From positions 1 to 64,000 of the forward strand of contig CANGHW010000006.1 of assembly GCA_947453695.1 (NCBI GenBank): 64,000 nucleotides of DNA, in the 5' to 3' direction. How positions within the stretch are numbered: the first letter of the stretch is position 1; every line of letters begins with the position of its first letter. Below, in pieces: positions 1 to 4,291 of the stretch. The position numbers and the translations under genes were made by a program. This DNA comes from Opitutia bacterium. GTDB lineage: Bacteria; Verrucomicrobiota; Verrucomicrobiia; Opitutales; Opitutaceae. The notes beneath the pieces were generated by a model. It ran no database searches, had not been told where the DNA came from, and saw only the letters and a list, made by a program, of their open reading frames with translations.

Positions 1-173
1 GGATGAACCTTCAGATCAGCCGCGATCTGTTTGTCGCTGCTTCCGCAGGAAGCTTGGCGAACGATCTTTGCTCTCAACACCACCTGCTGCGGCGTCGCTC
101 CAGCTCGAATCCAGCGTTCCAGTTGCTCAGTTTGCTCAGCCGCTAACTCCACGGATGCACTTCGTCGGGGCAT
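1..173 (-). mobile_element. IS630-family transposase, N-terminal part (cut by window edge)
   Basis: The minus strand is open from an ATG at 173 to the window edge (57 codons, starting MPRRSASVELAAEQ). Residues 11-57 read like the helix-turn-helix of IS630-type transposases: LERWIRAGATPQQVVLRAKIV followed by a SDKQIAADL recognition-helix segment. Just upstream of the start, around 196-232, lies AT-richer DNA (ataatggcacttatttgagg then gacactacacta) that is a plausible terminal inverted repeat next to a TA target site. The opposite end lies outside the window, so the repeat could not be matched. Whether the element is intact cannot be judged. Confidence 0.75.
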
Positions 174-457
174 CCTCCCTCCTGACTCCCTCTACCTATA
201 ATGGCACTTATTTGAGGGACACTACACTAGGATATAATCTTGGACGACGACGTTTTACACGCTGAGCGAGATGTCACATTTTTTGGTGGGATAGCCGAGC
301 GACCCGTCGCGCCGAAGCTAGGCCGAAATATTGAACGTTTGGGTGAGGAAAACCCCGAATGTCGGACCGGCCGACCGATTGTTAACCCAAACTCGAAAGA
401 AGCCCCGTAGTTGGCCTAATGCTTGCCCTTAAGTGCCGAGGATCCCACCGGTGAGCT
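174..457. other. Intergenic stretch between IS end and membrane protein gene
   Basis: The first ~60 bases are probably the terminal region of the IS630-like element. The remainder (about 240-457) contains no credible ORF, RNA gene or strong hairpin that I can see. It lies downstream of the minus-strand gene ending at 458. Confidence 0.4.
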
Positions 458-1351
458 TCAGGGTGTTCGATCGCGCTCGGCTCGCAGGAGTTTTTCAAGT
501 GTGGCGGGTGCAAGCGGTGGGTCGATAAAAGGGGCGAGTTGAGCAAGGCCGGGATTTAAGGGCAGTGCCGCCGGATTTGCGGCCGCGTAGGCCTGTTTGG
601 CGCGGCGCATGCGCGGGGCGAAGTCGTCGATCCACGCAGCGGGCCCGGGACTAAAGATCGTGCTGCCAGGGGAGACAATGAGACGCGAATCGTAGTCGGC
701 ATCGACGGCGGTGGCTTCGCGGATGATCCAGCCGCCACGAAGAATCCTCAGGCTACCATCGTGGGTGATTGTGTAGCGCGGGACGATGGAGGACTGGGCG
801 CGTTTGGTGAGATAGGGGGCGAGATCGAGGAGAGCGTCCGGCAGGGCGTTATTGTGGAACTCCATGAATTTTCGGAGTGCTACGGAGAGTTGATTAGCAA
901 AGCGCCGCTTGGCGGCGATGCGAAGGGCGGCGAGAGCTTTACGGCGCTGTTCGTCGGTCTCGAAGGCGGCGGTTCGGGCGACGGTGAACCAATCTTCGAC
1001 GGTGAGCAGGCTGCATTCGGGAATGTTGGCAGAGCGGTCAGCGGCAAGAAGCTTATGCAGTTGGGTGACACGAGCGAGCCACGCTCGGATTTCGGTGTCG
1101 CGAGGCCCAGCCTGCGTGGCTGGAAGCGGGGTGGTAAGCTGGGTAAGTTGCGTTTCGGCGAGTTGGACTTCGTGCGCGGTGGATTGGTGCTCGCTCCGCA
1201 CGTCTGTAAGCTGCTGGCTGAGGTCCGCAATGCGGGCGGCGAGAGATTGGAGCTGGATTTTTTGGGCGGCCAGAATGCTGGCCCCGTAGACGGTCGCGCC
1301 GACGAGGGAGGCGAGGAGCGCCGTGGCGAGGATGGTATTCGGGCGAAGCAT
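458..1351 (-). CDS. Membrane-anchored protein sharing the extracytoplasmic domain of the adjacent sigma factor
   Basis: A 297-residue protein read from the ATG at 1351. An ATG further upstream would overlap the sigma gene and adds no recognisable sequence. It has one N-terminal transmembrane segment (about residues 7-28), a coiled-coil-like stretch (about 30-75) rich in Gln, Leu and Ala, and a C-terminal domain. Residues about 87-215 align by eye with residues about 318-455 of the sigma factor encoded immediately upstream: both have an R-x-WLA start, an LLA-R run, IPE, a DW pair, and LPxxLxxLxPY. The gene starts 26 bases after the sigma stop, so the two are almost certainly one operon. A role as a partner or sensor for the sigma factor is inference; the family has no function known to me. 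Confidence 0.75.
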   Translation of the reverse strand: MLRPNTILATALLASLVGATVYGASILAAQKIQLQSLAARIADLSQQLTDVRSEHQSTAHEVQLAETQLTQLTTPLPATQAGPRDTEIRAWLARVTQLHKLLAADRSANIPECSLLTVEDWFTVARTAAFETDEQRRKALAALRIAAKRRFANQLSVALRKFMEFHNNALPDALLDLAPYLTKRAQSSIVPRYTITHDGSLRILRGGWIIREATAVDADYDSRLIVSPGSTIFSPGPAAWIDDFAPRMRRAKQAYAAANPAALPLNPGLAQLAPFIDPPLAPATLEKLLRAERDRTP

Positions 1352-1377: not shown

Positions 1378-2817
1378 TCAAGGAGCCCTGGCAGGTTGGG
1401 GAATCACCCCATCGATTCCGATGAGCCAAATCAAGTCGCGCTCCCGATCCACGACAGAGTGGGTCTTGATAATGGCATTGAAGTTGTTGCGCCCAGGCAA
1501 AGCGGAGAGTGTGGCTGAGCTGAGAAGTTCGTAACGGTTGAGCAGTTCTGGCGTGATGGCTGGGACGAAATAGGGGAGCAATTGATCGAGTGATGCGGGT
1601 AACTTTTCGTTGCTAGCTTTGATGTAGGCTTTGAGCGCGGTATGAAGCTTCAGCGCCATAAGGTTTTCAGCCTTTTGGCGCAGGGACGAAGAGACGTTAC
1701 GAAAGCCGGCGTCGGTATCGAGCTCGGCCGCCGAGGTGGTGCTGAAGGCGAAACTAGACCAATCGTCCGGCGAAAGGAATTGGAGTTCCGGAATTGAGAG
1801 GTCGGGGCGCTGGGCGAGTAGTTGTTTGAAGTAGTCGAGGTTGGCGAGCCAAGAGCGAAGTCGTTTTTCGAGCGCGGGATCAGTGGCGGGAGGAGCGGCC
1901 ATGGCGCGGGTGGCGGCGAGGTTGGCGTCGATTTGGGATTCAACTGAGGCGAGGCGTCGGGAGGTGGCCGCGTGCTCGTGGCGGGCGCGGGCGAGATCGG
2001 CGGTGAGGGTGAAGGAGCGGTATTCGATTTGCGACAGTTCGTCGCGGTAGCTGGATACGTTTTGGGCCACGTAGAGGCCGGTGCCGGCGAGGACGACCAA
2101 GGCGGCGGTGAAGAGCGATTTTTGGAGCGTAGTCAAGACGACGGCCTCCGCGGTGTTCGTGAGCCCGATGGTAAGCGTGGTGGCGGCGAGCTTGTTGACC
2201 GCGCCGACGAGACAGGCGGGCGCGGTTAGAATCGCGTGGGCGCTCAGGTCGGTGGCGAGACCGGCGGCGGTGACGGTGAGGCCGCGACGGGTGAGGGCAG
2301 TGCGGAGTCGGTCGAGGGCGCGGCTCACGCGTTTCTGCGCAGCATCGTCGGAAAGACCGATCGTGGCTCCGATGTCGCGGAAGTTTTTGGATTCAAAGAA
2401 ACGCAGAATGATGACGGCGCGGTCAGCGGCGGGGAGAGCATCGACAGCTTCATCGAGGTGCAGGGCTATGGCAGACCAAGGAGAGGGCGAAGACAGGTGC
2501 ATTGCATCGGTGGCGGCGATTTGGGCGGCGGTGGTTTCGCGGGTGGCGCGGCGCGACTCGCGGCGGATAAGGTCCACGGCAGTGCGGCGCGTGACGGTGT
2601 GGAGCCAGGGAGCGAGAGGTTGCCCGCCTGGGAAGTCGCGCGCGCGGCGGGCGAGGTCCCGGAAAACGGACTGCGTAATATCGTCGGCGAGAGGCGGGAC
2701 TTGTCGGTGGGCAGCGGAGTAGACGAGGTTGAGGTGGCGGGCGACGATCTCTGCGAAGGCGTTCTCCGCGAACGGGCCTTGAGCGGCGTAGGCTTTAAGT
2801 AGGTCGTGATCGGTCAT
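1378..2817 (-). CDS. ECF-type RNA polymerase sigma factor with membrane-spanning C-terminal extension
   Basis: A 479-residue protein. Residues about 15-90 form sigma region 2 (FAEIVARHLNLVYSAAHRQV, then DDITQSVF and WLHTVTRRTAVD). Residues about 115-175 form region 4 with the helix-turn-helix (LPAADRAVIILRF, then FRDIGATIGLSDDAAQKRV). Ordinary ECF sigmas end near residue 180-190. This one continues through a hydrophobic segment at about 235-252, a coiled-coil-like part at about 255-300, and a domain at about 318-455 that recurs in the next gene. The predicted topology puts the sigma part in the cytoplasm and the C-terminal domain outside the inner membrane, which suggests self-regulation by an extracytoplasmic signal. 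No separate anti-sigma factor lies next to it. A short palindrome at 2850-2862 sits just upstream of the start. Confidence 0.88.
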   Translation of the reverse strand: MTDHDLLKAYAAQGPFAENAFAEIVARHLNLVYSAAHRQVPPLADDITQSVFRDLARRARDFPGGQPLAPWLHTVTRRTAVDLIRRESRRATRETTAAQIAATDAMHLSSPSPWSAIALHLDEAVDALPAADRAVIILRFFESKNFRDIGATIGLSDDAAQKRVSRALDRLRTALTRRGLTVTAAGLATDLSAHAILTAPACLVGAVNKLAATTLTIGLTNTAEAVVLTTLQKSLFTAALVVLAGTGLYVAQNVSSYRDELSQIEYRSFTLTADLARARHEHAATSRRLASVESQIDANLAATRAMAAPPATDPALEKRLRSWLANLDYFKQLLAQRPDLSIPELQFLSPDDWSSFAFSTTSAAELDTDAGFRNVSSSLRQKAENLMALKLHTALKAYIKASNEKLPASLDQLLPYFVPAITPELLNRYELLSSATLSALPGRNNFNAIIKTHSVVDRERDLIWLIGIDGVIPQPARAP

Positions 2818-3558: not shown

Positions 3559-3740
3559 CTACGGGACCTGGGTCGGGTGCAGAAGGTAGGCGATGAGGTC
3601 GCACACTTCCTCGGATTTTACGGCTTCGAGGAGGCCTTCGGTTATGATGGATTGCGGCGATTCCTCGATGGCGGCGAAGTCGGCGCGCTCAACCGTGAGC
3701 GTCGCCGTCATCATCCGGAGGGCGCGGTGCGGGCGATCTT
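3559..3740 (-). pseudogene. Duplicated 3' end of the PVC haem-protein gene
   Basis: Read on the minus strand, these codons give LTVERADFAAIEESPQSI, then TEGLLEAVKSEEV and DLIAYLLHPTQVP followed by TAG. This matches the last ~57 residues of the intact gene at 4338-7418 (LTVERADVVAIEESPQSI, EGLLEAVKPEEV, DLIAYLLHPTQVP). Only the tail is present, with a one-base shift near its 5' edge, so it is a non-functional partial copy. It is joined at about 3728-3740 to a broken sigma-factor gene. Confidence 0.8.
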
Positions 3741-3932
3741 GAAAAGAAACGCGCGGGCACAGCCAATTTGGCGGCTCGCCCGGGCGGTCCAGATGCGAAG
3801 GAGTGAATCCTGCACGACATCGTCGACGTCCCGCACGCCGGGAAACGCCCGCTGCACATAGGCGCGCAAGGCACCACGGTGAGGATTGAATTCCTCGGTG
3901 AACCAGCGGGCTTGGTCAGTGGGAGGCGGCAT
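3728..3932 (-). pseudogene. Truncated ECF sigma factor gene fused to the duplicated cytochrome tail
   Basis: From an ATG at 3932 the minus strand reads MPPPTDQARWFTEEFNPH, then LRAYVQRAFPGVRDVDDVVQ, DSLLRIWTA and AFLFKIART. This is the N-terminal third of an ECF sigma factor (region 2) of the same kind as the intact one at 31104-31646, which begins MPPPDPESARWFAEHVQPHE and has the same AFLF-ART region. It breaks off at KIART, where the DNA switches to the 3' tail of the cytochrome gene. The join falls within the shared bases aaga-cgcccgcac, which points to recombination at a short homology. Confidence 0.8.
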
Positions 3933-4033
3933 CACGACGGTGCTGGGAGGCAGCGCGAAAGCGGCGGGCCGTTCAAGAGTGGACTTCAGTAACGAGCGGA
4001 GTAGAGCAGAGAATCGCGAGGAAGGAGCGGGAT

Positions 4034-4291
4034 TCAGCGAGGCAGGCCGCCGACGGCGGATTCGGAGTCGATGAGTTGACCGCGGCCAGTGCGTGCTCCT
4101 TCGACGAGGCGGCGGTCGACGGCATGGGCGAACACCCACGTAGCGGTCCGGATGCAAAGGAGTGAGTCTTACACGAGATCGTCGATGTCGGACGGGGCCA
4201 CGAGTCCGTGGAGGTAGGCGCGGAGGGCGGGCTCGTGGGGCGCGAGCTCGGTGGCGAACCACTGGGCGGTATCGGATCGGGGTGAATCCAC
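4034..4291 (-). pseudogene. Second decayed ECF sigma factor gene
   Basis: From a GTG at 4291 (VDSPRSDTAQWFATELAPHE, then LRAYLHGLVAPSDIDDLV) the reading frame meets TAA at 4169-4171, then continues DSLLCIRTA and on to a TGA at 4034-4036. The pattern QWF-E---PHE-ALRAYL...DIDDLV-DSLL-I matches region 2 of the sigma remnant at 3728-3932 and of the intact sigma gene at 31104-31646. The stop replaces the Gln codon of VQDSLL. The DNA after RTA has lost similarity. It lies between the cytochrome gene and the other sigma remnant. Confidence 0.72.

Follow-up and report, generated by a model that had tools for sequence, protein, structure and literature searches.

Most ECF sigma factors are controlled by a separate anti-sigma factor. 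The idea of a membrane sigma made as a single chain is already known from IutY and from the groups ECF48, ECF52, and ECF53. IutY of Pseudomonas putida (ECF243) is a fused sigma/anti-sigma protein (PMC5411451, PMC8999054) whose cleavage depends on Prc and RseP, which both cut it (PMC5411451), and among the fused cases in the review it is the only one that has been experimentally worked out. ECF52 (SCO4117), ECF48, and ECF53 occur in Actinobacteria, and SCO4117 shows signs of positive autoregulation (PMC5826349, PMC8999054). In planctomycetes, some ECFs have been found in the Triton- or SDS-soluble fraction (PMC8999054, PMC8567305).

In an Opitutia bacterium of the family Opitutaceae (Verrucomicrobiota), we analyzed a 64,000-nucleotide stretch, hereafter the window (contig CANGHW010000006.1, positions 1 to 64,000), which encodes a 479-residue sigma factor (P0001) followed by a partner protein (P0002). 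P0001 resembles IutY in combining a sigma factor, a membrane crossing, and a putative periplasmic part in one chain. However, the outer part of IutY is a cell-surface-signalling anti-sigma domain that works with an outer-membrane siderophore receptor, whereas P0001 has an unrelated outer domain, an adjoining sigma-less copy, and no FecR match; Pfam scans of P0001 and of 31 relatives gave no FecR hit. With ECF52, ECF48, and ECF53, P0001 shares a C-terminal extension with a transmembrane helix and an outer domain, but those groups have a zinc-finger anti-sigma domain, and no zinc-finger family was found between the sigma part and the membrane in Pfam scans of P0001 and the 31 relatives. ECF52 additionally has a proline-rich part and a carbohydrate-binding domain, neither of which was found in P0001. 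ECF57 and other planctomycete WD40 ECFs belong to the same superphylum as P0001 and also have long C-terminal extensions (PMC8999054, PMC8567305). Unlike them, P0001 lacks WD40 repeats, and family scans of P0001, the 31 relatives, and the relatives with other outer domains detected no WD40 family. Judged by these scans for zinc-finger, FecR, and WD40 features, the P0001 type appears to be set apart from the known fused sigmas, and it may already have an ECF group number.

Table 1 Features of the sigma gene and its partner gene in the window.
Feature	Position	Strand	Basis
ECF sigma, linker, membrane anchor, coiled coil, and outer domain (P0001, 479 aa)	1378..2817	-	ORF with ATG start
Sigma regions 2 and 4, residues 1-180	2278..2817	-	Pfam; structure comparison with ECF sigmas; -35 element covaries
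Charge-poor linker, about residues 181-232, P200 and L203 invariant	2122..2277	-	Family alignment/profile
Predicted transmembrane anchor, about residues 230-252	2062..2130	-	AlphaFold model; hydropathy; family profile
Predicted coiled coil, about residues 253-304	1906..2061	-	Single helix 232-304; period 3.5
Outer "DW" domain, residues 314-479	1381..1878	-	Alignment of relatives; AlphaFold model
Predicted own promoter: -35 TGTCGGATT, 14-nt spacer, -10 CGATAA	2857..2885	-	Conserved before relatives
Partner P0002, 297 aa: sigma-less, with signal anchor, coiled coil, and DW domain	458..1351	-	ORF; sequence comparison; AlphaFold model

The N-terminal part of P0001 has the ECF layout, in which regions 2 and 4 are present and the region 3 domain between them is absent. 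Pfam identified Sigma70_r2 at residues 25-90 (E 1.1e-9) and Sigma70_r4 at residues 125-172 (E 2.6e-8; region 4 as a whole spans 121-172), and the NCBIfam model TIGR02937 scored 70.7 bits against a cut-off of 42.9. In an AlphaFold model built from a 31-sequence alignment (mean pLDDT 84), sigma2 and sigma4 resembled ECF sigmas of solved structure such as 4lup (Z 13.3, 90 residues aligned) and 3hug (Z 11.2, 71 residues). Beyond this part, searches of residues 180-479 against Pfam and NCBIfam returned no family above its own cut-off. The family scans and the model confirmed the proposal in the preliminary description that an ECF sigma ends near residue 180 of a much longer protein, and the model also contained the coiled coil and the folded outer domain proposed there, in the form of a continuous helix at residues 232-304 that runs from the anchor into the coil (hydropathy period peaking at 3.5) and a helical and beta domain at residues 314-475.

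The segment that connects the sigma part to this helix is poor in charge and moderately hydrophobic. In the 31 relatives, residues 181-229 carried only 1-7% charge, and the family profile gave residues 195-213 a hydropathy of 1.3, compared to 1.43 for the anchor. The linker of P0001 contains one Cys and one His, and residues 198-238 of the model mostly had pLDDT values below 50. The best-scoring 19-mer without charge in P0001 was at residues 234-252 (Kyte-Doolittle 1.58) and the hydropathy peak of the family profile was at 230-248, close to the transmembrane segment that had been proposed at about 235-252. Since P0001 is rich in alanine and the hydropathy of its anchor did not exceed that of column shuffles (236 of 2000 reached it), the case for an anchor is built on three other points: nearly all relatives have a candidate transmembrane segment near this place, the helix is continuous, and P0002 has a homologous anchor. 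Two other measures were set aside: a transmembrane scan on the octanol scale was non-discriminating, as it found a segment in 1465 of 1550 shuffled proteins as well, and a positive-inside count of K+R gave no evidence for N-in because the fused proteins show no bias.

P0002 starts 26 nt past the end of the sigma gene and shares 28% identity with P0001 over residues 235-476 (E 2e-20). Its AlphaFold model (mean pLDDT 90) placed the anchor and the coil in a single helix at residues 4-72. Proteins of this stand-alone type have a single N-terminal signal anchor ahead of which acidic residues are avoided, and the hydropathy of the family's anchor was strong, with none of 2000 shuffles reaching it. 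As the preliminary description had stated for the adjacent genes, the nearby genes that were checked contained neither a FecR nor a zinc anti-sigma family. Its further suggestion that a separate anti-sigma factor would not be needed gives only part of the picture: P0002, which it overlooked, is a second, co-encoded membrane protein with the same outer half and probably takes part. Past P0002 the sequence is incomplete, as the contig begins within what looks, on the minus strand of window positions 1-180, like the start of a transposase-type helix-turn-helix gene (MPRRSASVELAAEQTEQLERW...).

The motifs of the DW domain are, in order, IPEL..LS..DW, an ALR/ALK helix, LP..L.PY, and RYE, followed by beta strands. 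No family was assigned to it in Pfam or NCBIfam for P0001, its relatives, or the stand-alone copies, and a sequence-profile search of the PDB yielded no match. An NCBIfam match to FtsL in 2 of 33 stand-alone copies was read as a coiled-coil match. Residues 136-240 of the P0002 model aligned with the pilins 4noa, 4tsm, 6i2o, and 6t8s (Z 4.3-4.5 over 82-85 residues, 2.7-3.1 A; best Foldseek E 1.5), which is a hint only that the domain is possibly pilin-like; a prepilin-peptidase site (G/A-[FMLI]...E) was absent from the P0002 N-terminus, MLRPNTILATALLASLVGATVYG, when read directly. Other proteins bear different domains on the same sigma-linker-anchor unit. Out of 76 other relatives, ten had TonB_C, and single relatives had AhpC-TSA/redoxin, SLBB, CarboxypepD_reg, Big_1, or DUF3738. 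TonB_C, AhpC-TSA/redoxin, SLBB, CarboxypepD_reg, and DUF3738 are domain types mostly located outside the cytoplasm. Together with the signal-anchored stand-alone copy, these exported-type domains argue for a C-terminus of P0001 outside the cytoplasm and, along with the anchor, coil, and folded domain, support the earlier picture of a sigma that spans the membrane and carries a domain on its outer side.

Two further anchored sigmas were seen in the same genome (L002 208-1386 and L001 4228-5763), one with an SLBB outer domain and the other extended by a different coiled coil. The promoter element of each is TGTKCGGTT, with up to one mismatch. In the window, positions 3559-4291 contain remnants of at least one, and probably two, other ECF sigma genes. 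An ORF at 3711-4262 on the minus strand matched Sigma70_r2 (E 1.2e-5), similar text occurs at 4169-4291, and 3559-3714 repeats the end of a 1026-aa gene, so that the region looks like a decayed tandem duplication.

The predicted promoter lies 39 nt ahead of the P0001 start codon, and no chance match to its pattern was expected in the window. In most relatives the -35 element begins 43-47 nt upstream of the start codon, compared to 68 nt at P0001. A canonical GAAC-type ECF promoter upstream of P0001 was rejected, as its score was below those of shuffles. The recognition helix of P0001 includes Q161 and K162, positions that correspond, by alignment with the E. coli sigmaE sequence, to R171 and S172 of that protein. 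Among sigmas with QK at these positions, 66 of 74 had TGTCGGATT upstream and only two had the other element, while 43 of 54 RM-type sigmas had TGTKCGGTT upstream and none had TGTCGGATT; TGTGCGGTT is the predicted counterpart of TGTCGGATT for an R-M helix in place of Q161-K162. Random stretches contained the two elements at 1.7% and 1.3%. The association between helix type and element was strong (Fisher p 8e-29, a value that ignores kinship), and on a tree built with the helix masked, the helix type changed at least four times and the element at least seven times on starred branches, as exemplified by L152_4755 (RM) and L170_2084 (QK). Both elements were mostly absent from sigmas with RK, SR, KK, and other helix types. 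Direct recognition of its own promoter by the sigma, a usual though not universal trait of ECF sigmas, is supported because the -35 element covaries with the recognition-helix residues, and on these sequence comparisons P0001 very probably drives its own operon.

Close matches to the promoter were nearly absent elsewhere. In the assembly of the same genome (6.4 Mb, 93% complete), no other site with zero or one mismatch was found with spacers of 13 and 14 nt. When the spacer was allowed to vary, a second exact-pattern site (C80:15930) was judged to be due to chance, having an 11-nt spacer, GGGATAA, and no plausible gene start. Across 16 genomes the strict pattern had 15 sites, and 11 of these were located at fused sigma genes that had been mapped. 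Of the remaining four, one (G490, L238) directly precedes an ORF that runs antisense to what appears to be a sigma gene, and the others looked unrelated. The pattern is strict and would miss weaker targets, so that the own operon being the only target refers to close consensus sites and not to the regulon.

P0001 belongs to a family that occurs in many Verrucomicrobiota. A profile search with the C-terminal domain, of the kind suggested in the preliminary description, detected it in 36 of the 252 family genomes. Among 51 distinct fused genes from Opitutaceae and other Verrucomicrobiota, 22 had a stand-alone copy directly downstream on the same strand. Since the remaining 29 had no detected DW-type partner, although a few of those had another anchored partner, a partner seems not always needed. 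Several fused/partner pairs overlapped by 4 nt, although such overlaps depend on the start codon chosen (our ORFs run from the first possible start). Outside the family, the anchored partner of some fused sigmas was of a different type, and some sigmas with another outer domain were paired with a stand-alone DW protein (both among L152, L169, L175, and L211).

On a tree of DW domains, fused and stand-alone copies did not form two single clades, and some fused/stand-alone pairs were sisters. The stand-alone label changed at least five times, as forced by starred branches, which implies several separate origins of the pairing. Receptor halves thus underwent repeated duplication, or conversion within loci. 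The P0001/P0002 pair falls within an older set, where the fused domains (ten) and the partner domains (six to eight) group apart. A tblastn search of plasmids gave no match. At L104 (2364-9667) and L120 (2956-4894, G484), several stand-alone DW membrane proteins were clustered with no sigma gene detected alongside. At seven other loci (L083, L084, L086, L093, L102, L140, and L148), the fused/partner genes share a conserved neighbourhood: a convergent MsrA-like gene with the motif GCFWCTEAAY and an apparent signal peptide comes immediately after them and is itself followed at some loci by an EttA-like ABC-F gene.

Sequence comparison establishes the domain order, conservation of the paired gene and of the promoter, and the way in which the promoter covaries with the recognition helix. 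By analogy with IutY, it is plausible that P0001 is held until a signal frees it. On balance, we favor P0001 as a one-piece receptor-sigma that is held at the membrane, freed by proteolysis, and feeds back on its own two-gene operon. The charge-poor linker and one transmembrane helix would tether the sigma domain to the cytoplasmic membrane on its inner side, and the coiled coil would carry the outer domain into the periplasm. P0002 probably forms a mixed oligomer with P0001. The tethered sigma would be inactive, although no anti-sigma domain to explain this was found in P0001. A signal on the outer domains, for which the structure model offers no ligand, would trigger site-1 and then site-2 (RseP-type) cleavage, and the freed sigma would join RNA polymerase and switch on the promoter of the two-gene unit in a positive feedback. 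The genome encodes an RseP-type M50 peptidase (488-aa frame) and S41 peptidases, but because M50 occurred in 14 of 14 control genomes and S41 in 10 of 14, their presence lends little weight to the proposal.

The sigma could instead act without cleavage, like ToxR or CadC, staying at the membrane, receiving the signal via the coiled coil, and recruiting RNA polymerase to the promoter there. The continuous helix from anchor to coil in both P0001 and P0002 could pass on a conformational signal, and a dedicated own promoter suits a regulator with few targets; however, the characterized fused case IutY is cleaved. A sigma factor must also enter the core enzyme and then leaves or loosens after initiation, and we regard a permanently tethered activator as unlikely. 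The membrane topology could differ as well. The nearly charge-free linker of ~50 residues could also enter the membrane, and with two crossings the DW domain would be inside; linker and predicted anchor would then be a membrane hairpin or peripheral patch, and the C-terminal domain would make cytoplasmic protein contacts, a mode of action that has been suggested for ECF57 with its WD40 extensions. The hydropathy of the linker, which is near that of the anchor, and the K+R counts, which alone do not favor N-in, are in line with such a hairpin. In contrast, the single signal anchor of the stand-alone copy, with its avoidance of acidic residues, places the same domain outside there, and TonB_C, redoxin, and SLBB occupy the same place in relatives, making a cytoplasmic DW domain distinctly improbable.

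The role of P0002 could also be mainly that of a brake, i.e., a decoy lacking the sigma part that would damp the feedback by pairing with the fused receptor, rather than that of a co-receptor. As part of the same predicted operon it would be produced along with the sigma, and partners were gained repeatedly by duplication. However, many fused genes manage without a partner and the sequence holds nothing that separates a brake from a co-receptor; we give little credence to the brake.

Verrucomicrobiota may, as we tentatively propose, have phylum-wide one-piece receptor-sigmas in which one sigma-linker-anchor unit bears interchangeable outer domains and a two-residue helix code selects between two -35 sequences. 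In the type described here, the receptor would be split with a co-encoded sigma-less copy, and this type may be a closed switch with its own operon as the only strong target. Given the sigma-less copy beside it and the scarcity of further consensus sites, one may ask what role a sigma factor would have with no strong target besides its own operon. These proteins form a large natural set of fused sigmas with one chassis, an identifiable promoter, and many swapped outer domains, by which signalling from the membrane to a promoter within one chain would be directly testable with a simple reporter.
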